A DNA stretch of 23,042 nucleotides from a virus: IMG/VR virus record IMGVR_UViG_3300002460_000171, positions 1 to 23,042 of that record; one strand, 5' to 3'. Made by a program: the position numbers and the translations under genes. The notes beneath the pieces were generated by a model that did no database searches, was not told where the DNA came from, and saw nothing but the letters and a program-made list of their open reading frames with translations. Within the stretch, counting starts at the first letter, position 1, and every line of letters starts with the position of its first letter. Of the stretch, positions 3,142 to 17,271 are shown in pieces.

Positions 3142-3269
3142 ATAAAGAAAAAATTAAAGATTTATTAAAAGAAATAATAAATTTGAATGATAAATTACAT
3201 CAAAAATGTAGTTTATTAAAAGGTGAATTAATAAAAATGAAAATTAATAGAGGAAATATAGCAAAATGA
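3138..3269 (+). CDS. 43-residue coiled-coil-like small protein
   Basis: A 43-residue frame (MNKEKIKDLL to RGNIAK) bounded by ATGA overlaps at both ends: its ATG overlaps the stop at 3139-3141, and its own TGA (3267-3269) overlaps the next ATG at 3266. This tight coupling is the main evidence. The sequence is helical and charged with heptad-like Leu/Ile spacing. No family is recognised. Confidence 0.5.
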   Translation: MNKEKIKDLLKEIINLNDKLHQKCSLLKGELIKMKINRGNIAK

Positions 3270-3622
3270 CATTAAAAATATATGAATGGGAAATTAAAGA
3301 GTATGGAGAATTTGAAAAGATTAAATTATGCAAGTTTGAACAAAATAAAATATTAAGAAAATTGTCAAGGCATTTTAAAATAATAACTCCTTGTTTAGCA
3401 CAAAGTTATAGACGTGGTGGTGCTGGTTCATATGAGTATAATTCTAATATAATTAGAACTGGAGTAAATTCTACATTAGGTGATATATGTCACGAATTTG
3501 CTCATCATTTAACTTCACAACAACACAATAAAAGAATGGGTCACTGTAAATATTGGAAAAAGAATTTAAAGAAAGTTTATACTTTTGCAAAGAGGTATTT
3601 ACCTAAAAAGGATTTGAAATAA
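3266..3622 (+). CDS. SprT-like zinc metalloprotease domain protein
   Basis: 118 residues. The motif CHEFAHHL (H76, E77, H80) followed by GHCKYW (H93) matches the SprT/Spartan pattern, HExxH with a third His 13-17 residues on and a nearby aromatic. SprT-like proteins are metalloproteases linked to DNA-protein crosslinks or to phage functions. The protein is short and consists of little more than the catalytic domain, without the zinc-ribbon tail of cellular SprT. It starts by ATGA overlap with the 43-residue gene and its stop directly abuts the next ATG. Confidence 0.65.
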   Translation: MTLKIYEWEIKEYGEFEKIKLCKFEQNKILRKLSRHFKIITPCLAQSYRRGGAGSYEYNSNIIRTGVNSTLGDICHEFAHHLTSQQHNKRMGHCKYWKKNLKKVYTFAKRYLPKKDLK

Positions 3623-3997
3623 ATGAAAATACAAATAAAAGATGTATATTTTGGGCGAATAATTTGTGAATACGACGCTAAAAATATAAAAGAGGTTGTA
3701 GAAAAAGCTGTTAATAAAAAGATTGATTTAACTAATGCTAATTTAAGAAATGCTGATTTAAGAAATGCTGATTTAACTGATGCTAATTTAACTAATGTTA
3801 ATTTAATTGATGCTAATTTAACTAATGCTGATTTACAAAATGCTAATCTAACTAATGCTGATTTAAGAAATGCTGATTTAACTGATGCTAATTTAACTGA
3901 TGCTAATTTAACTGGTGCTAATTTAAGAAATATAACAATAAATGAAAAAAGTTTCAAATTTATACAATCTTGGTTTAGATGGACTATTGAAAAATGA
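3623..3997 (+). CDS. pentapeptide-repeat protein
   Basis: 124 residues. After about 32 N-terminal residues there are some 13 tandem A(N/D)LxN/D pentapeptides (for example ANLRN, ADLRN, ANLTD) to about residue 108, predicting a right-handed quadrilateral beta-helix. The DNA shows a matching 15-base periodicity. Some relatives (Qnr, MfpA) mimic DNA and bind topoisomerases; whether this one does is unknown. The tail is aromatic (SWFRWTIEK). It abuts the SprT-like gene and overlaps the next gene by ATGA at 3994. Confidence 0.85.
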   Translation: MKIQIKDVYFGRIICEYDAKNIKEVVEKAVNKKIDLTNANLRNADLRNADLTDANLTNVNLIDANLTNADLQNANLTNADLRNADLTDANLTDANLTGANLRNITINEKSFKFIQSWFRWTIEK

Positions 3998-4314
3998 AAT
4001 ACAAAAGCGTAATAAAAGACAGAAAAAAAGTAAGTCGTAAAGAAGCAGAAGAGAAATTTCCTTGGTTGAAAGACGCTTCTTTTAAAGATGCAGAAATAGA
4101 TATTTCTGATAGTTTTTTGGTTTGGAATGGTGGAACTTGGAGAGATGGAAATTGGGAAAATGGAATTTGGAACAATGGGCTTTTTAAAAATGGACTTTGG
4201 CAAAAAGGAGATTGGGAAGATGGGATTTGGGAAGATGGATTTATGTGGAATAATCTAAAGCAAAAATACTGCAAGGTAAAATATAATGGAAGAACTTTTG
4301 AGGAGTTGGAATGA
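3994..4314 (+). CDS. G-x-W pentad repeat protein
   Basis: 106 residues. The centre (about residues 45-82) is a strict five-residue repeat with consensus G-x-W-x-(D/N): GTWRD, GNWEN, GIWNN, GLFKN, GLWQK, GDWED, GIWED. The spacing equals that of pentapeptide-repeat proteins, but the repeated core residue is Trp rather than Leu. A solenoid fold is likely. It is translationally coupled by ATGA to the true pentapeptide-repeat gene upstream and to the 175-residue gene downstream, so the proteins may act together. No function is recognised. Confidence 0.7.
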   Translation: MKYKSVIKDRKKVSRKEAEEKFPWLKDASFKDAEIDISDSFLVWNGGTWRDGNWENGIWNNGLFKNGLWQKGDWEDGIWEDGFMWNNLKQKYCKVKYNGRTFEELE

Positions 4315-8512: not shown

Positions 8513-9267
8513 TGGGATTTATAGAAGAAACCTTACCAAAAGAAACTTTATTTAAATCTGCAGAAGAAACTAAAAGAGGACTAAAGATTGCTATCTATGG
8601 ACCTTTTTCTACAGGTAAAACACATTTTGCCTTAACAGGTAAAGAACCTGTATATATAATTGATACAGAAATGGGAAGTGCCCCTATTATGAAATCTATA
8701 CATTTTAAAAACAAAAATACTAAAATATTAGAAGTATTAGAGGTTAGCGAAGATGTTTTAGAAAGAGATGATGTAAAAAGTTATGAAAAAATTAAAGAAG
8801 CAATTGAATATCTATATAAAAATGTACATGAAGGAACATTAGTTGTAGATTCTATAACAGATATATGGAAAATTGTACAAGGATATTCTAAAGTAAATTT
8901 ATTAAAAATTAAAGCTGAGGATAGACCTAAATATCAATTTGATTGGGGACTAATAAATAATGTGTACAGGCAAATGTTACTTAAATTAATAGCCTTGCCT
9001 GTAGATGTTATAATTACTAGTAGAACTTCAGTTGATTATGATGGAAATGGAAACAAACTAAATTCTGAAAGTCCTCAATGGCAAAAAGATACCCCTTATA
9101 TGGTTGATATTGTAATAGAATCTGTTAAAACTTTCAATAAAATGGATGGTCCAGGATTTGAATATGAAATTAAGAAAGCTAGAGGATATGACAAAAAAAT
9201 AATTGGAAAAAAATTTAAAGAACTAAATATAGAACAACTAAAAAAGGTGTTAAATGGGGAAATTTAA
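8512..9267 (+). CDS. RecA-like (Sak4-type) recombination ATPase
   Basis: About 251 residues from ATG 8512. Walker A GPFSTGKT (30-37) and Walker B LVVDS (D113) sit in a RecA-like core, with TSRTSVDY downstream as in phage Sak4/AAA_24-type ATPases. Such proteins act with an SSB in strand annealing or recombination. The adjacent putative SSB and PCNA genes support that role. The start is chosen because TGATG joins it to the preceding stop; a TTG six bases upstream is less likely. It overlaps PCNA by 14 bases. Confidence 0.7.
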   Translation: MGFIEETLPKETLFKSAEETKRGLKIAIYGPFSTGKTHFALTGKEPVYIIDTEMGSAPIMKSIHFKNKNTKILEVLEVSEDVLERDDVKSYEKIKEAIEYLYKNVHEGTLVVDSITDIWKIVQGYSKVNLLKIKAEDRPKYQFDWGLINNVYRQMLLKLIALPVDVIITSRTSVDYDGNGNKLNSESPQWQKDTPYMVDIVIESVKTFNKMDGPGFEYEIKKARGYDKKIIGKKFKELNIEQLKKVLNGEI

Positions 9268-9976
9268 AATAGATAGTAAAGAATTAAGTGATTTTCTTAG
9301 AAATATGTTTATAAATAATGAATTTGATACAAAAGATATTATTTTCAGATTAAAAAAAGATGGTTTGTATATAAATGCTACATCAGCTTCGCAATCACTT
9401 TTTGTAAGTGGTCATTTGAATGAAGAAATCTTTCACGAAATTGTTCCATTCAATTTTATACTAAATAATATATCAGAATTTATTAAATTAATAGAAAATT
9501 TTGATACAACTATAACAGTAACAGAAGAAACTGGAAAATTAATAATAAGGTCTGAAAAAGAAAAGTTTTCTGTTCCTTTAATAAATGGAGAAATTTCTGA
9601 ACAAGATAAAGTTCCAAATCTTAGTTTTGAGGAATATATATCTTTATCTGGGCCAAATGTATTAGATGGCAAAAAAATAGCTAGATTTAGAAACACAATC
9701 AAAGAAGGTAATATAATTTTAGAGGTACTAGATAAACATTTATTGATACATATAGGAGATAATAAATTTAAAAAATATATTTATAGATTAGAATTAAATT
9801 TAGAAAAAGAATTAAATTGTAAATCTTCTTTTGGTGAACAATTGTTAAATATATTACAAGTAATAGATAAAAAAACTTGTAAATTGTTTTTAAAAAATGA
9901 TTATCCTATGCAAATTAATTATAATCCTACAAATTTTTCAGAAGTAAAATATATTTTAGCTCCGAGGGCAGATTAA
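9254..9976 (+). CDS. pcn: PCNA-like sliding clamp
   Basis: 240 residues, the usual length of an archaeal PCNA. Evidence is the alternating beta/alpha clamp pattern, the central TGKLIIRSEKEKFSVPLI segment and the C-terminal YILAPRAD, matching the highly conserved LAPR region of PCNA. It would tether the family B polymerase encoded downstream. A virus-encoded PCNA points to an archaeal host. Its TAA shares a base with the queD ATG (TAATG at 9974-9978), so replication and modification genes are co-transcribed. Confidence 0.85.
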   Translation: MGKFKIDSKELSDFLRNMFINNEFDTKDIIFRLKKDGLYINATSASQSLFVSGHLNEEIFHEIVPFNFILNNISEFIKLIENFDTTITVTEETGKLIIRSEKEKFSVPLINGEISEQDKVPNLSFEEYISLSGPNVLDGKKIARFRNTIKEGNIILEVLDKHLLIHIGDNKFKKYIYRLELNLEKELNCKSSFGEQLLNILQVIDKKTCKLFLKNDYPMQINYNPTNFSEVKYILAPRAD

Positions 9977-10341
9977 TGGAAATATACAAAACATTTACAT
10001 TTGACTCAGCACATCAATTATTTTTGCCATATGATAGCAAGTGTAATGAATTACATGGTCATACATATAAAATTGAAGTTTGGATAAAAGGAACAGTAAA
10101 TAAAGAAACAGGATTGATAGCAGATTTTACACATATTAAGAAAATGATAAATGATAATTACGACCATAAAAATTTAAATCAAATACCTCCTTTTTTAAAT
10201 AAAAATATTCCTACAACAGCAGAAAATATTGCTACAGAAATAATGTTAAATATATTTGTTAAATTTGGATTTCCTTGTAAAGTAAGAATTTGGGAAACTA
10301 GTAATTCCTATGCAGAGGCAGATTCATCTGAATTAAAATGA
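9976..10341 (+). CDS. queD: QueD, 6-carboxytetrahydropterin synthase
   Basis: 121 residues, full length for the family. It converts dihydroneopterin triphosphate to 6-carboxy-tetrahydropterin, the second step towards preQ0. Zn-binding His are H13 (SAHQL) and H27/H29 (LHGHTY), catalytic Cys is C23, and YDHKNLN (D63, H64), the PTTAEN Glu (E83) and WET (E107) match QueD. A eukaryal-type PTPS is excluded by length and context. It overlaps queE by ATGA at 10338. Confidence 0.95.
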   Translation: MEIYKTFTFDSAHQLFLPYDSKCNELHGHTYKIEVWIKGTVNKETGLIADFTHIKKMINDNYDHKNLNQIPPFLNKNIPTTAENIATEIMLNIFVKFGFPCKVRIWETSNSYAEADSSELK

Positions 10342-11000
10342 AAGTTCATGAAGTATATATGGCATTCCAAGGGGAAGGTAGAAATTTAGGTGTTTATAGT
10401 TATTTTATCAGAACCTTCGGATGTCCTGTACAGTGTAACTGGTGTGATATTCCAGAAAGTTGGAATGGTAAAGAAAAACCATTTACAGTAACACCTGAAA
10501 AATTATCAAAGGAAATTTTAGAAAACAAACTTGCAGATAATGTAGTAATAACAGGAGGAGAACCTACTATACAAAAAGACCTAGTTGATTTAGTAAAAAT
10601 AGTAAAACAAGGTGGAATGGGAGGAATAGAAATAGAAACTAGTGGAATAAATTATAATTCTGAGTTACAACAATATGTCAGGTTCAATGTAAGTCCAAAA
10701 TTATACAGTGCTGAAGCAAAAATAAATTTAAATGAAGAAGCATTAAGACAATATAATAAATTTTTAGAAAATGATTTTAAATTTGTAATTAAAAATTTAG
10801 GAGATTTTAAAATGGCATTATCCTTAAAAAAGAAATTAAAATTAAGAAATGTTTATTTTATGGCAGAAGGTGTTACATCAAACATACAAATAAAAAGATT
10901 AAGAGTCATTGAAAACATGTTAACAGAGTCAGGACAATATGATATAAAATTAACACCGAGGTTACATGTGATGATGTATGATAATAATAGGAAAAGATAA
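10338..11000 (+). CDS. queE: QueE, 7-carboxy-7-deazaguanine synthase
   Basis: 220 residues. Radical SAM enzyme that makes 7-carboxy-7-deazaguanine from 6-carboxy-tetrahydropterin. The N-terminus (YMAFQGEG) is typical of QueE; GCPVQCNWCD holds the CxxxCxxC [4Fe-4S] site (C29, C33, C36); ITGGEPT (71-77) is the SAM-binding GGEP motif; ETSG and NVSPKL are also conserved. ATGA coupling to queD and TAATG coupling to the phosphoribosyltransferase gene (base 11000 shared) show tight translation. Confidence 0.95.
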   Translation: MKVHEVYMAFQGEGRNLGVYSYFIRTFGCPVQCNWCDIPESWNGKEKPFTVTPEKLSKEILENKLADNVVITGGEPTIQKDLVDLVKIVKQGGMGGIEIETSGINYNSELQQYVRFNVSPKLYSAEAKINLNEEALRQYNKFLENDFKFVIKNLGDFKMALSLKKKLKLRNVYFMAEGVTSNIQIKRLRVIENMLTESGQYDIKLTPRLHVMMYDNNRKR

Positions 11001-11428
11001 TGGTAGAAAAAAATAAAAAACAAAAAATTATTAAAATGACATGGTCTGAATTAGAATATGCAATTGACAAATTAGCAAAAAATATCTTATTTGAAGTAGA
11101 ACAAAATGATTTAAAAATAGGATTATTGGCAGGAATTCCAAGAGGTGGATTTATAATAGCTACAATGTTATCACATAAAATTAAAAAATATACAGGACTA
11201 AGTCCTATAGTATGGTCATCAAAAGAATTAGACCATGGTAATATTAATTCAACTATTGTATGTGATGATATAGCAGACACAGGAAAAACATTAAGTAAAT
11301 ATATAAATTTTAAATTAGCCACAATACATTATTGTAAAAAATCTAAAATTCAACCAGAATTTTGGGCGATAGAAAAAAAAGAAGATGAATGGATACAATA
11401 TCCATGGGAAAACAATGATGAAAATTGA
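11000..11428 (+). CDS. xanthine/guanine phosphoribosyltransferase-like
   Basis: 142 residues. The PRPP-binding motif VCDDIADTGKT (87-97), PRGG (47-50) and the C-terminal WIQYPWE (131-137) match type I purine phosphoribosyltransferases, closest in pattern to E. coli Gpt (N-terminal TWxxL helix and WIEQPWD near its end). The likely reaction is guanine or a related purine base + PRPP to the nucleotide. It lies inside the deazaguanine cluster, where it could recycle the guanine freed by DpdA to GMP and so to GTP for FolE. Activity on a deazapurine base is an alternative. Confidence 0.8.
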   Translation: MVEKNKKQKIIKMTWSELEYAIDKLAKNILFEVEQNDLKIGLLAGIPRGGFIIATMLSHKIKKYTGLSPIVWSSKELDHGNINSTIVCDDIADTGKTLSKYINFKLATIHYCKKSKIQPEFWAIEKKEDEWIQYPWENNDEN

Positions 11429-11921
11429 ATACTCAGATGATTTATTTACAAAGGAAGAATTAAAAAATACACCGAAAAGACATAAAAAATTTATTAAGGA
11501 ATGGGTAGATGATAGTTTAAACTTTAATTTTACTACTTTTGAAAGTAAAATTGATGAAATGATAATTATTAGGGGTAAATTTTATTCTATGTGTTCACAT
11601 CATTTAGTTCCATTCTTCGGAGATTTTTATATTGGTTACATACCAAACGGTAAAATAGCAGGATTAAGTAAATTTTCAAGAACAGTAAATATGTTTGCAC
11701 ATAGACCACAAGTGCAAGAAAAATTAACAGATGAAATCGCTACATATTTAGATGATAAATTAAAACCTAAAGGATTAATAATAATAATGAAAGCCAGACA
11801 TTTATGTATAGAAATAAGAGGTATAAAAACCGAAGGAGAAACTACCACATCATCATTAAGAGGAATATATAAAACAGATAGTGATGCTAGAAAAGAATTT
11901 TTAGATTTAATGAGGAGATAA
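11415..11921 (+). CDS. folE: FolE, GTP cyclohydrolase I
   Basis: About 168 residues. It opens GTP to dihydroneopterin triphosphate, the first step to preQ0. Zn ligands C60, H63 (CSHH, where the family usually has CEHH) and C131 (RHLC) are present, as are GYIPNGKIAGLSK, the R-x-QVQE-L-T block and a Thr/Ser-rich TTTSS. This is type IA GTP cyclohydrolase; archaea normally use other types (GCYH-IB/MptA), so it was probably acquired from a bacterial or viral source. The frame is open from 11385, but ATG 11415 or 11418, overlapping the previous gene by 11-14 bases, best fits the family. Confidence 0.93.
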   Translation: MMKIEYSDDLFTKEELKNTPKRHKKFIKEWVDDSLNFNFTTFESKIDEMIIIRGKFYSMCSHHLVPFFGDFYIGYIPNGKIAGLSKFSRTVNMFAHRPQVQEKLTDEIATYLDDKLKPKGLIIIMKARHLCIEIRGIKTEGETTTSSLRGIYKTDSDARKEFLDLMRR

Positions 11922-11925
11922 AATA

Positions 11926-12666
11926 ATGACAATGACAACAACACAAACAGTAAATAAATCATTTGTAGATGATGATTTTTTTAAAGAGATTACTAAAGGA
12001 ATACAAAATGAAAAATGTATTATAATATTATCAGGAGGAATGGATTCTACTACTTTGTTATATGGATTAGTTAAAAACAGAGCAAAAGTAATAGCATTGT
12101 CTTTCAATTATGGACAAAAACATAAAAAGGAACTAGAAATGGCCATGATTAATTGTAAAAAATTAGGAGTACCTCAAATAATTTTAGATTTAAATGTATT
12201 AAATCAAGTAGCAGACTCAGCTTTAACAAGAGATTATATTAACATACCAGAAGGATATTATACAGATGATAATATGAAACAAACTGTAGTTCCAAATAGA
12301 AATATGGTTATGCTCAGTTTAGCTACATCATTCGCTATAAGTAATGGAGCTAAATATTTATTTTACGGAGCCCATTCTGGAGACCATCATATTTATCCTG
12401 ACTGTAGAATAGAATTTATATCTTCTATGAAAAAAAGTATTGGTTTATGTGATTGGAATCCTCCTATTTTATCTGCACCTTTTATTAATATAGATAAAAG
12501 CGATATAGCATTATGTGGAAAAAAATGGAATGTAGATTATTCATTAACTTGGACTTGTTATAAAGGAAGAGAAAAAGCTTGTGGTAAATGTGGTAGTTGT
12601 ATAGAAAGATTAGAAGCATTTAAAAAAATAGGAATGGAGGACCCTATACAATATGAAAATAAATAA
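11926..12666 (+). CDS. queC: QueC, preQ0 synthase
   Basis: 246 residues. ATP-dependent conversion of 7-carboxy-7-deazaguanine to the nitrile preQ0. PP-loop SGGMDST (36-42), FNYGQKH (60-66), VPNRNM and the C-terminal Zn site (C211, C219, C222, C225) are all present, so it should be active. No glutamine amidotransferase domain is fused, so it is not a Gat-QueC. A GAGGAGA Shine-Dalgarno sequence lies about seven bases before the ATG, inside the end of folE. It overlaps the next gene by 14 bases. Confidence 0.95.
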   Translation: MTMTTTQTVNKSFVDDDFFKEITKGIQNEKCIIILSGGMDSTTLLYGLVKNRAKVIALSFNYGQKHKKELEMAMINCKKLGVPQIILDLNVLNQVADSALTRDYINIPEGYYTDDNMKQTVVPNRNMVMLSLATSFAISNGAKYLFYGAHSGDHHIYPDCRIEFISSMKKSIGLCDWNPPILSAPFINIDKSDIALCGKKWNVDYSLTWTCYKGREKACGKCGSCIERLEAFKKIGMEDPIQYENK

Positions 12667-13345
12667 ATCTGCACTAATCAAAGATTTCTATGTAGAAATG
12701 AAATATATAGCTTTAATTGCAAAAGAAGATGTTGAAATAGAATATGAAGGAAAAAAATATCATTTTAACGCTCCTAAAAAAATCAGGATAAGTTCATTAT
12801 TTTTTAGAAATTACACATGTATGAGTAATGCTGGATGTTGCAAAATTCCTTTTTATAAATTTTGGGGTCAAATAGAATATAAAGAAATTCCTGAAGAAAA
12901 TAAAAAAGATTTACAAGAAATAGAAATGAAAGTTAATGGACATATTAAAAAGATTTATGTGGGTCAAAGACATAAAAATGAATGTCAATATTTAAAAAAT
13001 AATAAATGTTTAATACATAATTGGAAACCATTGCATTGTAAAATGCCTCTTATAAAATTTATATATAATAAAAATTTAAGAAGGACTAACATTATTAAGT
13101 CTCCATTTGCACGTAATCTTTGTAAAAATTGTTGTGCAACATTAATAGAAGGTCTAAATGAAAAACAGTTTAAAGATGATATGGTTATGTTTGATTGGAT
13201 TGAAAAATTATCTAAAGAATGGAATATTAAAACATATATCAAAGAAATTAAGAAAATATTGGAATATATGTATCATAAACAACCTTATCAAACACCATTT
13301 ATTTTAGATAGTAGTAATACAAAATTGAGGTATAACAATGAATAA
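12653..13345 (+). CDS. YkgJ-like Cys-rich metal-binding protein
   Basis: 230 residues. The pattern C56-x5-C62-C63, C111, C119-x2-H122 with KP and C129 matches the YkgJ/UPF0153 zinc- or iron-chelating family, and a further CKNCC cluster (C157, C160, C161) follows. The family has no general biochemical role. Placement between queC and the QueF-family gene, overlapping both, suggests a part in forming or altering the deazaguanine, perhaps a redox or transfer step. Phage DNA-modification enzymes of unusual fold (for example the dPreQ1 methyltransferase DpdM) are worth comparing; I cannot establish homology by eye. Confidence 0.7.
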   Translation: MKINKSALIKDFYVEMKYIALIAKEDVEIEYEGKKYHFNAPKKIRISSLFFRNYTCMSNAGCCKIPFYKFWGQIEYKEIPEENKKDLQEIEMKVNGHIKKIYVGQRHKNECQYLKNNKCLIHNWKPLHCKMPLIKFIYNKNLRRTNIIKSPFARNLCKNCCATLIEGLNEKQFKDDMVMFDWIEKLSKEWNIKTYIKEIKKILEYMYHKQPYQTPFILDSSNTKLRYNNE

Positions 13346-13808
13346 AATATCAAAACAAGTGAAAGATATAACCGGTTATGAAAATAAGCATAAAAACATA
13401 ACAGAACAATTAAAACAACTTTCAAAACTGCAAACTGTTGATAATATACATAAAGATGTCAAATATGAAGTAATTTACACTTCTAAAGAACTCAATAGTC
13501 TATGCCCTAAAACAGGACTTCCGGATTTTGGAACCCTTACAATAAAATATGTTCCTGATATGGTTGTTGTAGAAGAAAAATCTCTAAAACTTTATTTAAA
13601 TGGATATAGAAACATAGGAATGTTTAAAGAATTTATAGCTGTACAAATAATAAAAGATTTAGTGAAAATATGTTTACCACATAAATTAAATGCAAAATTT
13701 GTTTTTGAACCAAGAGGTGGAATACCATCTGAAGTAATTATAAGATATGAAAAAAATAATGATGAAGAAAAATTTTATGTAAATTATCTTTTATTTTCAC
13801 AATGGTAG
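13338..13808 (+). CDS. QueF-family protein (reductase or QueF-like)
   Basis: 156 residues, single-domain size. LCPKTGLPDFG places the thioimide Cys (C56) and Asp (D63) at the same spacing as B. subtilis QueF (C55, D62). VEEKSLKLYLNGYRN resembles the QueF NADPH-binding motif E-S-K-S-h-K-L-Y with Glu for the first Ser. Where QueF has the conserved His-Glu pair, this protein has K97-E98. PRGGI (125-129) is retained. QueF reduces preQ0 to preQ1; the archaeal QueF-like enzyme instead converts preQ0 in tRNA to archaeosine without NADPH. The features are mixed, so the reaction cannot be assigned. GAGGT six bases before the ATG; overlaps neighbours on both sides. Confidence 0.8.
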   Translation: MNKISKQVKDITGYENKHKNITEQLKQLSKLQTVDNIHKDVKYEVIYTSKELNSLCPKTGLPDFGTLTIKYVPDMVVVEEKSLKLYLNGYRNIGMFKEFIAVQIIKDLVKICLPHKLNAKFVFEPRGGIPSEVIIRYEKNNDEEKFYVNYLLFSQW

Positions 13809-14932
13809 AAATTAAATATATTCCAGCAATAGGAGGGGCATTTAATAATAAACCAAAAACTCCTTATTCTGAATGTATTTATTGGTGGAAAAAAGAATGT
13901 ACTTTTTATTATCCTTATATTCTCTCATCTGCTTTTTATAATTTTGATAGACATAATTACAGAGAAGAATTAGATATAGCTCCAAATGTAACCATAATAG
14001 CTGATAGTGGTGGATATCAAAGTGTTAGTATGAGTAAAGATATTGATGTAATTAAAATTTTAAGATGGCAGGAAAAGGTTGCGAACATAGGATTAACACT
14101 TGATACACCTCCTTATACAATGTCCGAAACAATGCAATTTGGTTCTAAATTAACAGGAGAAGGGTTTATTAAAAAAATGGAGCAAACTGCTGTTAACAGT
14201 GAAAAAGCGATAGAAAGTAGAAAAAATAATAATCTTAAATTATATGCTACAATACAAGGAGAAACTTATCAAGAAATGAAATCTTGGTATGATAGATTAA
14301 CTAAAAACCATCAATTTGATGGTTACGCATTAGCCCCAAAACCATCTACAAGTCCTGAACAAATAGCAAAATATCTTATTTTTGCTAAAGAAAATTTTCC
14401 AGATAAACCAATTCATATATTACAGGTTAGTGGTAAAACAAGTATCCCTATGATAACTTATTATGGTTTATTATCCAAACATCCTCTTATTACTTTTGAT
14501 AGTTCCTCTTATATTATTGGTAGTAAATATAAAGCTATTTTTAATCCTTTAAAATATTTTGATATGATTAAATTATCTAGTGATAGAGAAAGGATACTTA
14601 CAGAAAATAATATTGTAGCTGATTTTAAACAATCACCTTGCATATGTGAAAGCTGTAAAATGATTAATAAATACAATATATTATCAGAAGAAGGTAAAGA
14701 TGATACATTTGGATTAAGTTTGTTATCTTTACATAATTTAAATCATATTGTTGATTACACTAGTATAATAACAGGAATAAAGGATAAAGAATATCTAAAA
14801 TTTTTTATATCAAAACATTCTAGAAATGCTTTAAAAGGAATAGAATATATTGATGGATGTATTGAAAATGGATTAGAAAATTATGAAAAAGGTGTAAGAC
14901 ATAGAACTAAAAATTTACTTGATTACTACTAA
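13802..14932 (+). CDS. dpdA: DpdA-like DNA guanine transglycosylase
   Basis: 376 residues, TGT superfamily. ADSGGYQ (D68), LTLDTPP (D101) and ITFDSSSY (D233, the probable nucleophile) line the active site. A Zn site C280-x-C282-x2-C285 plus H311 has exactly the TGT spacing. It lacks the PUA tail of archaeal tRNA transglycosylases, and with the viral preQ0 genes this favours DpdA, which swaps guanine in DNA for a 7-deazaguanine base. An archaeal-virus DpdA subfamily (DpdA4) has been described and is the natural candidate. A role on tRNA is less likely but not excluded. Overlaps the QueF-family gene by 7 bases; PolB starts two bases after its stop. Confidence 0.85.
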   Translation: MVEIKYIPAIGGAFNNKPKTPYSECIYWWKKECTFYYPYILSSAFYNFDRHNYREELDIAPNVTIIADSGGYQSVSMSKDIDVIKILRWQEKVANIGLTLDTPPYTMSETMQFGSKLTGEGFIKKMEQTAVNSEKAIESRKNNNLKLYATIQGETYQEMKSWYDRLTKNHQFDGYALAPKPSTSPEQIAKYLIFAKENFPDKPIHILQVSGKTSIPMITYYGLLSKHPLITFDSSSYIIGSKYKAIFNPLKYFDMIKLSSDRERILTENNIVADFKQSPCICESCKMINKYNILSEEGKDDTFGLSLLSLHNLNHIVDYTSIITGIKDKEYLKFFISKHSRNALKGIEYIDGCIENGLENYEKGVRHRTKNLLDYY

Positions 14933-14934
14933 CA

Positions 14935-17271
14935 ATGGAATTAAAAACATTACCTTTGGTGTGTATAGAATTAGATGGAAAAAATGATTTAATGCTATTT
15001 ACAAGAAATCCTGAAACAAGAAAAAGAGAACAAATACTGATAACAGATTTTCAACCTTATTTTTATATAGAAGATGAAGGAGGAGAATTTAAAGGATTGT
15101 ATGGAGATAATATTAAAAGAATTTATGTCAATGTTCCTGGAGATGTAATAATTGAAAGACAAAAATATCTAAAAACCTGGGAGGCAGATATAAGATATAC
15201 TACTAGATATTTAGTTGATAGAATAAAACAAATATCTTATACACCTTTAGAAATATTATATTTTGATATTGAAACCGCTGATTCATTAGATGTTATTAAC
15301 ACACCTAAACCTGTAACCATGATTTCTTTTATGACAAACCATGATTTAATTCCTACTGTTATAACATTTGATTTAAAAGAAAAAATTTTAGATACTGTAA
15401 TATGTGAAAATGAGAAAGAAATGTTTTTATATTTTATAAATAAAATAAGAGATTTAGACCCAGATTTAATAGTAGGATGGAACAGTAATAATTTTGACCT
15501 TCCATATTTATTTAATAGATGTAAAAAATTAGGAATAGATAAACAATTCAAAACCATTTCACCTATGAATTGGTGTATCAGTGATAAAAATGATTTTAAA
15601 GTAAAAGGCAGAGTATGTTTTGATTTATTAAAAGGGTATAAAATATTAACTGCAGGTGAAAAAGTAAGTTACAGATTAAATTCTATATCAAAATTAGAAT
15701 TAGGAGAAGAAAAAGTTAAATTACCTATTAATATGTCATTTGAAGAATTAAATAAACAAAATAAACCTAAATTAGTAGAATATTCAAGACAAGATACATT
15801 ACTTTTAAAATTATTAAATGAGGAAAAAGGTATCATAGATTATTTTGATACATTGAGAAGAGAAATAGGTTGTAATTGGGAAGATTTACAATATAATACT
15901 AGAATAGCAGATGTATTATTAATAAGAAAACTAGATAAAAAGTTTATTCTGCCTACCACAATACCACATAAACGTAAAGATTTAAAGGGTGGATTAGTTC
16001 TAACTCCTAAACCAGGATTGCATAAAAATGTAGGAGTATTAGATTTAAAATCGCTATATCCTTCCATAATTATCTCTTATAATATGAGCCCAGAAACAAT
16101 TAATAAAGAAGGTAAAATAGATGTAGGTAATGGAATTAAATTCAAAAGTAAAGAAGAATGTAAAGGTTTAATTCCTGATATATTGATAGAATTATTTAAA
16201 TTAAGAAAACACTATAAATCTTTAATGAAACAATATCCTTACAGTACTTCTCTTTATAACAAATACTATAATCAACAATATGCAATTAAAATAATATTAA
16301 ATAGTTTTTATGGTGTATTAGGTTCTCCTCACTACCGTTTGTATAGGGAAGAAATAGCAGGAAGTGTTACATACATAGGAAGAAAAATCATAAATTGGAC
16401 AAAAGAAGAAGTAAATAAGAAAGGAATGGATGTTATATATGCAGATACAGATAGTAATTTTATAAAAGTAGAAGGTGAAAATGCTGTAGAAAGGTTAAAG
16501 GAAATATGTTCTTATATTAATTTTATTTATAAAGATTTTGCACAACAACATAATATTCTGGTACATAATTTTGAAATGGAATTTGAAAAATTATTCAGTA
16601 AAGTATTTTTTGGGGAAAGTAAAAAACGTTATGCTGGTTTAGTAAATTATTTAGATGGTGAAATACTTAATCCTGAAAAATTAGTTATAGTAGGTTTTGA
16701 AGTTATAAGAAGTGATAGTTCTTATATTGCACAAAAAATACAAAAGAAATTATTTAGGATGGTATTAGAAGAAAAAAATAAATCTGATATTGATGAATTC
16801 ATAAAAACAGAAAAGAAAAAATTGATAGAAGGATTTTATACTTTTGATGATATAGGAATTCCAAAAGCAATAACTAAACCATTGAATACATATAAATCAA
16901 ATGTTCCACATGTGAGAGGAGCAAAATACTCTAATAAATATCTTAAAACACAGTTCAAAGAAGGAAATAAAGTAAAATTTATTTTTATTTATCCTTACTA
17001 TGATAAAGGAATTGGAACAGATGTAATAAGTTTTGAATTTAGTTGGCAGTTACCTAAAAATATAAAAGTAGATTGGTCAAAAATGATGCCTAGTACAATT
17101 GATAATAAAGTGGAAAGAATTTATTCTGCATTAGGATGGAATTATTCTTTCGGTGTGAAATCTATTTCATCAAAATTATTTATAACAAACTCAAAAAACC
17201 TTGAATCAGAATATAATTGGATTGAAAAGGAGGAAAATAAAATAATTAAAGAAGATTTATTTGAATATTAA
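14935..17271 (+). CDS. polB: family B DNA polymerase
   Basis: 778 residues, full length for archaeal or viral PolB. Exonuclease motifs: FDIET (D111, E113), NNFD (D188), YSRQD (D287). Polymerase motifs: A DLKSLYP (370-376), B K452-IILNSFYG, C YADTDS (502-507). All catalytic acidic residues are present, so both polymerase and proofreading should be active. No intein or protein-primed TPR insertions are evident. It would work with the PCNA and primase of this operon, copying unmodified DNA that DpdA then modifies. Confidence 0.97.
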   Translation: MELKTLPLVCIELDGKNDLMLFTRNPETRKREQILITDFQPYFYIEDEGGEFKGLYGDNIKRIYVNVPGDVIIERQKYLKTWEADIRYTTRYLVDRIKQISYTPLEILYFDIETADSLDVINTPKPVTMISFMTNHDLIPTVITFDLKEKILDTVICENEKEMFLYFINKIRDLDPDLIVGWNSNNFDLPYLFNRCKKLGIDKQFKTISPMNWCISDKNDFKVKGRVCFDLLKGYKILTAGEKVSYRLNSISKLELGEEKVKLPINMSFEELNKQNKPKLVEYSRQDTLLLKLLNEEKGIIDYFDTLRREIGCNWEDLQYNTRIADVLLIRKLDKKFILPTTIPHKRKDLKGGLVLTPKPGLHKNVGVLDLKSLYPSIIISYNMSPETINKEGKIDVGNGIKFKSKEECKGLIPDILIELFKLRKHYKSLMKQYPYSTSLYNKYYNQQYAIKIILNSFYGVLGSPHYRLYREEIAGSVTYIGRKIINWTKEEVNKKGMDVIYADTDSNFIKVEGENAVERLKEICSYINFIYKDFAQQHNILVHNFEMEFEKLFSKVFFGESKKRYAGLVNYLDGEILNPEKLVIVGFEVIRSDSSYIAQKIQKKLFRMVLEEKNKSDIDEFIKTEKKKLIEGFYTFDDIGIPKAITKPLNTYKSNVPHVRGAKYSNKYLKTQFKEGNKVKFIFIYPYYDKGIGTDVISFEFSWQLPKNIKVDWSKMMPSTIDNKVERIYSALGWNYSFGVKSISSKLFITNSKNLESEYNWIEKEENKIIKEDLFEY

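Follow-up and report, generated by a model that had tools for sequence, protein, structure and literature searches.

A candidate 7-deazaguanine DNA-modification block between the sliding clamp and polymerase genes of a probable methanogen virus

The viral exchange of guanine in DNA for 7-deazaguanine bases is a known kind of system, and its setting beside genes for a sliding clamp and a DNA polymerase is known from Enterobacteria phage 9g and Pseudomonas phage PaMx25. dPreQ1 has been measured in Dp-1 and HVTV-1, both of which carry a gene of the QueF family (PMC6884629). Here we describe an eight-gene block on the IMG/VR virus record IMGVR_UViG_3300002460_000171, a stretch of 23,042 bases that was analysed as a whole and is called the window below. 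The block is set within viral DNA-replication genes, between clamp and polymerase, and we read it, with a probability of about 0.72, as a system for exchanging guanine for a 7-deazaguanine at the preQ1 level in the DNA of a tailed archaeal virus. We base this reading on the pathway genes lying in one tightly packed run between clamp and polymerase; on the conserved QueF residues together with the dPreQ1 of the QueF-bearing viruses HVTV-1 and Dp-1; on the match of the transglycosylase to TGT and DpdA structures and of its relatives' profile to the DpdA2 of Vibrio phage nt-1; on a viral locus, L144, with a like gene order and a DpdA 34% identical; and on the repetition of the gene associations in other viral loci with a phosphoribosyltransferase (PRTase) or with QueF. 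New are this variant of the system, the lineage of its DpdA and above all the association with the PRTase. From position 9254 to 17271 the genes follow one another in this order (E-values of family and structure matches in brackets):

9254..9976, + strand: PCNA-like sliding clamp, left border (archaeal NF002222 2.9e-12, below its cut-off; phrog_947 7.3e-5; no Pfam match at 0.05)
9976..10341, + strand: QueD, 6-carboxytetrahydropterin synthase (PF01242 1.2e-30; active-site motifs)
10338..11000, + strand: QueE (TIGR03365 3.1e-25, below its cut-off; phrog_2076 7.1e-36; CxxxCxxC)
11000..11428, + strand: xanthine/guanine-type PRTase, proposed guanine recycler (PF00156 5.3e-7, above its cut-off; phrog_8995 5.2e-12; purine PRTase structures)
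11385..11921, + strand: FolE, GTP cyclohydrolase I (PF01227 5.2e-51; start uncertain, 44-base overlap with the PRTase gene as listed)
11926..12666, + strand: QueC, preQ0 synthase (PF06508 4.4e-66; TIGR00364 above its cut-off)
12653..13345, + strand: PF03692-like, phrog_16018-related cysteine-cluster protein, proposed preQ1 N-methylase (PF03692 1.4e-4; phrog_16018 3.2e-4)
13338..13808, + strand: QueF, predicted unimodular preQ0 nitrile reductase (TIGR03139 9.8e-35, above its cut-off; B. subtilis-type QueF structure 2e-21)
13802..14932, + strand: TGT-fold guanine transglycosylase, putative DpdA, with a CxCxxC motif (TIGR00449 9.3e-15, above its cut-off; Foldseek TGT 3bll and DpdA 7ui4)
14935..17271, + strand: family B DNA polymerase (PolB), right border (PF00136 9.1e-57)

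An initial annotation of this DNA had placed FolE, QueD, QueE, QueC, a QueF-family gene and a DpdA-like gene between PCNA and PolB, and the family matches agreed with this placement, but the PRTase gene (11000-11428) and the PF03692-like gene (12653-13345) had been missed. The genes had also been described as joined by overlapping starts and stops, which was mostly the case: adjacent genes of the block overlapped by 1-44 bases, with the exceptions of a 4-base gap between FolE and QueC and a 2-base gap between DpdA and PolB. A second IMG/VR record, IMGVR_UViG_3300002460_000149 (the twin), was 100% identical over 17,020 bases of the window and extended 8,581 bases beyond its right side. We read the extra part of the twin, from its frames and not from a family search, as holding tail-type genes, one of them a long tape-measure-like frame.

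FolE, QueD, QueE and QueC were all found together in the block, and their families indicate that the virus encodes its own preQ0 pathway, in which these enzymes would lead from GTP to preQ0. The catalytic residues, which have generally known roles and were read off alignments to solved structures, bear out the earlier statement that they are intact in all four enzymes: QueD has both the Cys of KCxxLHGH and the DHxxLN motif, QueE the CxxxCxxC motif, FolE the Cys/His/Cys zinc ligands, and QueC the SGGxDS loop (P-loop) and the C-terminal cysteines. For QueE the Radical_SAM model PF04055 scored above its own cut-off and TIGR03365 below its own.

QueF nitrile reductases are defined by Cys55, Asp62 and Glu97 together with a motif containing Glu78 (B. 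subtilis numbering; PMC5372742). The window QueF kept the Cys, Asp and Glu as well as Glu78 of the motif, which reads EEKSLKLY and departs at the second position. In a structure search its best solved relatives were nitrile reductases (2e-21), and the QueF-L structure 5jyx reached only 0.24. Because the nitrile-reductase residues (PMC5372742) are kept, preQ1 is likelier than preQ0 as the product: QueF would reduce preQ0 to preQ1, and the end product is probably not preQ0 but preQ1, possibly methylated. The initial annotation had proposed that preQ0 is made and inserted; its preQ0 pathway and its DNA-modification cluster remain the best reading, and the product shifts to what is probably the preQ1 level. 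Next to the substrate-binding Glu the window QueF has Lys in place of His (FKE, not FHE). For comparison we used a set of 80 viral QueF loci. Seven of these, like some loci outside the set, were typed solely with our own models built from few proteins, which miss genes that are too distant. Among 78 aligned viral QueFs, 49 have His before the Glu, 22 have Met, 5 Tyr, one Ile and one, that of the twin, Lys; the Cys, Asp and Glu were kept in 78/78. As loss of the His is common (29/78) while Cys, Asp and Glu are kept, it is no argument by itself against QueF activity.

The gene between QueC and QueF encodes a cysteine-cluster protein that scored 22.9 bits against the Pfam cut-off of 23 for PF03692. 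Relatives in other viral loci lay above this cut-off (L140, L124, L148, L181), below it (L150, L166, L178, L133) or had no match (L169). An alignment of the window protein with 15 relatives from QueF loci showed seven shared cysteine columns, five of them invariant and two nearly so. Three of the four N-terminal motif cysteines were found in the window protein, with the local alignment uncertain by one residue, and because one motif Cys is missing we use the name PF03692-like and do not count the protein as a PF03692 member. With a family model, relatives were detected in 19/80 viral QueF loci, the twin included, and in 16 of these 19 the gene lay within 300 bases of QueF (farther away in L128, L150 and L169). 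The model had no accepted member in 80 PRTase loci; a match of 15.6 bits in L065 lay on a QueE frame and was rejected. A link between the QueF His change and the presence of this gene was likewise discarded (9/29 non-His versus 10/49 His QueFs, Fisher p 0.41). There was no match at 0.01 among phage records, closer relatives in viral contigs comprised only the twin record, and a PF03692 search in four viral records found none, an uninformative result since even the twin's gene was missed. The structure model was fair (predicted local distance difference test score, pLDDT, 77; predicted TM-score, pTM, 0.77) and no solved structure matched it (Foldseek best E 0.47; second aligner best Z 2.4); we do not claim a new fold.

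Salmonella FliB is a [4Fe-4S], S-adenosylmethionine-dependent lysine N-methylase with a cysteine motif that its authors likened to PF03692 (PMC8598068). The window protein is a distant relative of FliB from which one of the conserved cysteines is absent. As the side chain of preQ1 is, like the lysine substrate of FliB, a primary amine, N-methylation of preQ1 is a natural guess, and we give about even odds that the protein methylates the preQ1 aminomethyl group. Cui et al. 2023 reportedly described a dPreQ1 methylase, DpdM; searches for this enzyme and for DpdL and DpdN brought up nothing relevant. The related DpdA cluster of L066 encoded a Rossmann-fold methyltransferase (PF13489; L066:9024-9722) between FolE and QueC, possibly another route of base methylation.

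The transglycosylase had the TGT-like motifs DSGGYQ and CxCxxC. Foldseek returned only two solved structures at E<=0.001, the TGT 3bll and the DNA preQ0 insertase DpdA 7ui4, and a second structure aligner gave Z 19.9 and a root mean square deviation of 3.7 over 285 residues to archaeosine TGT, with a model of modest confidence that is weak in part (pLDDT 62). Together with the TIGR00449 match and a match of profiles to DpdA2, these results place a TGT-fold, DpdA-type transglycosylase in the same cluster as the pathway genes. A phylogeny against the DpdA1-4 subfamilies had been suggested and was run. The comparison set contained DpdA1, the nt-1 DpdA2, the Campylobacter/immuto type (which we take to be DpdA3), HVTV1_69 (by our own reading a candidate for DpdA4), bacterial DpdA and TGT; the tree had 58 rows, with several long end branches, and L269 and L281 (labelled TgtA) were left out. 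The window protein fell outside DpdA1 (the 9g/PaMx25/Dp-1 clade, 22 rows, 100/100) and outside the Campylobacter/immuto type (phrog_19058, a 12-row clade, 100/100), and four bacterial DpdA rows stood apart from it (94/98). It paired with L144 (100/96), followed by L066 (95/63) and then by three cellular TGTs (97/84), which leaves an action on tRNA less closed as an alternative than the initial annotation implied.

A profile of relatives of the window protein found YP_008125322 of Vibrio phage nt-1 (3.3e-10), which sits beside QueC and has been named DpdA2 (PMC6884629). The window transglycosylase alone gave 0.09 against this protein, below a match, and the tree put nt-1 on another branch. We further compared profiles for a zinc-motif group of our own definition (window, L144, L106, GR11A). 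It gave 2.3e-24 against a DpdA2-like group, whose lead is partly built in since it contains proteins picked for likeness to the window, 4.5e-9 against the nt-1 DpdA2 alone, 6.8e-8 against bacterial DpdA, 1.6e-7 against bacterial TGT, 2.3e-7 against archaeal TGT, 4.3e-7 against the Campylobacter/immuto type and 1e-5 against DpdA1. For HVTV1_69 this comparison gave 0.078, and the profile of window relatives had no match to it at 0.1. Our reading is that the transglycosylase is a DpdA from a lineage of its own close to TGT, with DpdA2-like viral proteins and cellular TGT as its nearest kin and DNA as the presumed substrate. It would swap the modified base into DNA and release guanine. One phage record, Vibrio phage GR11A, matched the protein (1e-5), and a search for closer relatives in viral contigs returned only the twin. 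In L106 a 386-amino-acid frame with a weak DpdA-profile match (22 bits; L106:8750-9907) stood directly before PolB, and upstream of it were AAA_24, QueD, QueE, PRTase, a PCNA-type frame and FolE, a layout like that of the window; no QueC was detected in this stretch.

The gene between QueE and FolE encodes a member of the phosphoribosyltransferase superfamily (PF00156, 29.5 bits against a cut-off of 26.3), in which the phosphoribosyl pyrophosphate-binding loop DDxxDTGKT, RGG and the purine-site motif WIxxPW were all present. It had 11 matches at 0.01 among 50,697 phage records, of which 330 matched the window QueC. Five of the 11 were viewed: the gene lay beside FolE, QueD or QueE in Flavobacterium phage immuto, Brevundimonas phage StAshley, PaMx25 (where the matching frame differs from the annotated gene) and Synechococcus phage ZZ01, and MT835497 had a match with none of the pathway genes detected within 6 kb of it. 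We then took the best 80 of at least 327 relatives in viral contigs, with three of four seeds coming from such clusters, and 80 dUTPase loci taken in the same way as controls. At least one of FolE, QueD, QueE, QueC and QueF was found in 74/80 PRTase loci versus 2/80 controls, two or more in 62/80 versus 0/80, and a DpdA-like gene in 54/80 versus 1/80. The p value of 2.5e-35 for this comparison is overstated, as the loci are not independent and the seeds came partly from such clusters, but the contrast is still large. Of 78 loci with a scored PRTase frame, 58 had a pathway gene no more than 300 bases from the PRTase, most often FolE (43), and after grouping at 60% identity a pathway gene was kept in 44 of 48 group representatives. 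Six loci had no pathway gene, four of them with the PRTase within 1.5 kb of the locus end and two with it farther away (L071, 3.1 kb; L085, 8 kb). In L298 and L022 (a contig that begins 1.4 kb before the PRTase) a DpdA-like gene was present and no pathway gene was detected. The Campylobacter/immuto type was the commonest DpdA (35 of 50 typed PRTase loci); this type is known for complete replacement of guanine, and a high guanine flux would be in keeping with that. Only 7/79 QueF loci contained the PRTase, one of these with the Campylobacter/immuto DpdA type, so it is not a constant part of such systems. L081 had a FolE2-type GTP cyclohydrolase (PF02649; L081:8396-9202) beside PRTase, QueE and QueD, and no ordinary FolE was detected there.

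Because DpdA expels guanine, by analogy with TGT, recycling of guanine to GMP is the simplest role of the PRTase. The enzyme may convert the released guanine to GMP, which can feed FolE again, a step whose chances we regard as evenly balanced. The wider proposal, that a dedicated guanine-salvage PRTase serves such systems across many virus lineages and that a FliB-like iron-sulphur methylase here leads to N-methyl-preQ1 in DNA, is tentative and rather doubtful as a whole. In the literature covered we found no description of a link between a PRTase and 7-deazaguanine DNA modification, although Cui et al. 2023 may hold one: the main text of PMC6884629 does not contain "phosphoribosyl", and the PRTases treated in PMC9025141, PMC5587285 and PMC11309003 are nicotin(amid)ate PRTases.

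The window PolB matched 2,575 phage records, the top-ranked being Halorubrum tailed viruses. In a genome scan restricted by its patterns, the four best PolB genomes among the matches listed (E from 4e-125 to 2e-106, the next 4e-63) were a Euryarchaeota archaeon, a Methanocalculaceae archaeon and two Methanoregula, the last three belonging to the order Methanomicrobiales; one of the four matches lay among cellular genes. A PolB match at 1e-30 occurred in 116 of 120 genomes sampled from Methanoregula's order. The PolB matches point to a Methanomicrobiales-like, methane-making archaeon as the likely host. None of these 120 genomes had a QueF match at 0.001, whereas 9 of 14 control genomes did (6 above the cut-off), so that host tRNA would offer no evident use for preQ1. 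The virus primase had no match in the 120 genomes either, which without a positive control shows little. The benefit to the virus is likely resistance to host nucleases, as for other 7-deazaguanine phages (PMC6884629).

Several observations weigh against the exchange of guanine for a preQ1-level base in viral DNA as we propose it. The Lys of QueF at the His position of B. subtilis QueF is unique among the 78 viral QueFs, although 28 others are also without His. The PF03692-like protein has Ala at position 60 where at least 90% of 16 rows have Cys, which may mean a changed or missing metal site. The transglycosylase had neither a PADLOC DpdA match (E<=1) nor a PHROG match, whereas DpdA1 references match phrog_887, and cellular TGTs are the group nearest to the window protein, L144 and L066 (97/84). 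The PRTase matched the xanthine PRTase model NF006613 (2.1e-8) with 33.9 bits against a cut-off of 138; a score this far short of the NCBIfam cut-offs does not settle which base it uses, and we call it xanthine/guanine-type without assigning it to a family. QueC was present in all four best-PolB genomes, in three in full and in one in pieces. As the likely host type thus has its own QueC, it may make preQ0 itself, so that the viral genes would not be indispensable and might add to the preQ0 supply without being its sole source; the initial view of a base made by the virus itself and not by the host stands as far as the pathway is encoded.

The position of cellular TGTs in the tree, the DSGGYQ and CxCxxC motifs and the tRNA TGTs that headed the fold matches from the second aligner would fit an enzyme acting on host or viral tRNA, with an operon that boosts tRNA modification and leaves DNA unchanged. 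We consider this unlikely: no tRNA gene was found in the window, the transglycosylase gene overlaps QueF and ends 2 bases before PolB, none of the 120 genomes sampled from the likely host order gave a QueF match, and the zinc-motif group profile is closer to the DpdA2-like group (2.3e-24) than to TGT (1.6e-7), in groups chosen by us. Archaeal tRNA moreover has archaeosine and not queuosine (PMC5485725). Kinship to TGT is compatible with a DNA substrate, since DNA hairpins can be labelled with the E. coli TGT (PMC10103133). The archaeal setting also brings deoxyarchaeosine into view as the end product, with the QueF-family protein acting as an amidinotransferase of the QueF-L kind, and QueF and QueF-L are hard to separate by sequence alone (PMC6884629). 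This appears very improbable given the TIGR03139 score above cut-off, the NADPH motif present except for one position (EEKSLKLY) and the far better match to nitrile reductases (2e-21) than to QueF-L 5jyx (0.24).

Another conceivable route is that the PRTase makes a nucleotide of the modified base which PolB incorporates at replication, the transglycosylase being secondary. PolB adjoins the block, and FolE, QueE or QueC lay within 300 bases of the PRTase in 58/78 loci; against this, a DpdA-like gene accompanied the PRTase in 54/80 loci, and L298 and L022, which pair the two with no pathway gene detected, fit guanine recycling better. A deoxynucleoside triphosphate of the modified base would further need ribose reduction and kinases, and we think this route quite unlikely. 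An auxiliary metabolic or folate-related gene set that is not used on nucleic acid is hardly credible: FolE and QueD belong to families that also serve in pterin metabolism, but we know of no use of QueC, QueE, QueF and a transglycosylase together other than for 7-deazaguanine bases.

If the exchange of guanine for a preQ1-level base in viral DNA is correct, a probable methanogen virus joins those with a whole pathway for 7-deazaguanine DNA modification, and its transglycosylase, which falls within none of DpdA1, the Campylobacter-phage type or the bacterial DpdA, stands near the split between tRNA and DNA enzymes. The PRTase, which accompanies such systems in many viruses and may recycle guanine, would be a testable missing part of them generally. 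Elsewhere in the window, a frame at 3623-3997 was made up by eye of pentapeptide-like repeats (ADLxN type), a frame at 3994-4314 consisted by eye of short repeated GNWENG-type units, and 3266-3622 had a weak SprT-like match (PF10263 0.0037, below its cut-off); in HVTV-1, too, a SprT-like gene is found close to the modification cluster.

Among known systems, Halovirus HVTV-1 (Druskaviridae) is likewise an archaeal tailed virus with FolE, QueD, QueE, QueC and QueF, and its cluster lies a few kb from its own DNA polymerase. It has dPreQ1 in about 30% of G (PMC6884629). Unlike in the window, its genes are scattered, its candidate transglycosylase HVTV1_69 is without clear kinship to the window enzyme, and the 16 kb viewed, in which many genes are labelled "hypothetical", have no annotated PRTase or cysteine-cluster gene. 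In 9g and PaMx25 (Queuovirinae) the pathway genes adjoin DpdA, sliding clamp and DNA polymerase as they do here, but their DpdA belongs to the DpdA1 clade (100/100), their hosts are bacteria, and no QueF is annotated in the stretches viewed; their QueC frames of about 470 amino acids are presumably Gat-QueC. The nt-1 DpdA2 resembles the window enzyme in being found by the profile of window relatives (3.3e-10) and in standing beside QueC, and differs in having no match to the window protein alone (0.09) and in its tree branch. Immuto has QueD, QueE, PRTase, FolE, DpdA and QueF in one region, but with a Campylobacter-phage-type DpdA, a long QueF of bimodular size and a family A polymerase. L144 (IMG/VR 3300035698_019908) shares the order QueC-x-QueF-DpdA-polymerase-PDDEXK-primase and has a DpdA 34% identical; its polymerase is much more distant, and between QueC and QueF, in the slot of the PF03692-like gene of the window, it carries an FNR-like NAD-binding reductase (PF00175; L144:497-1180).

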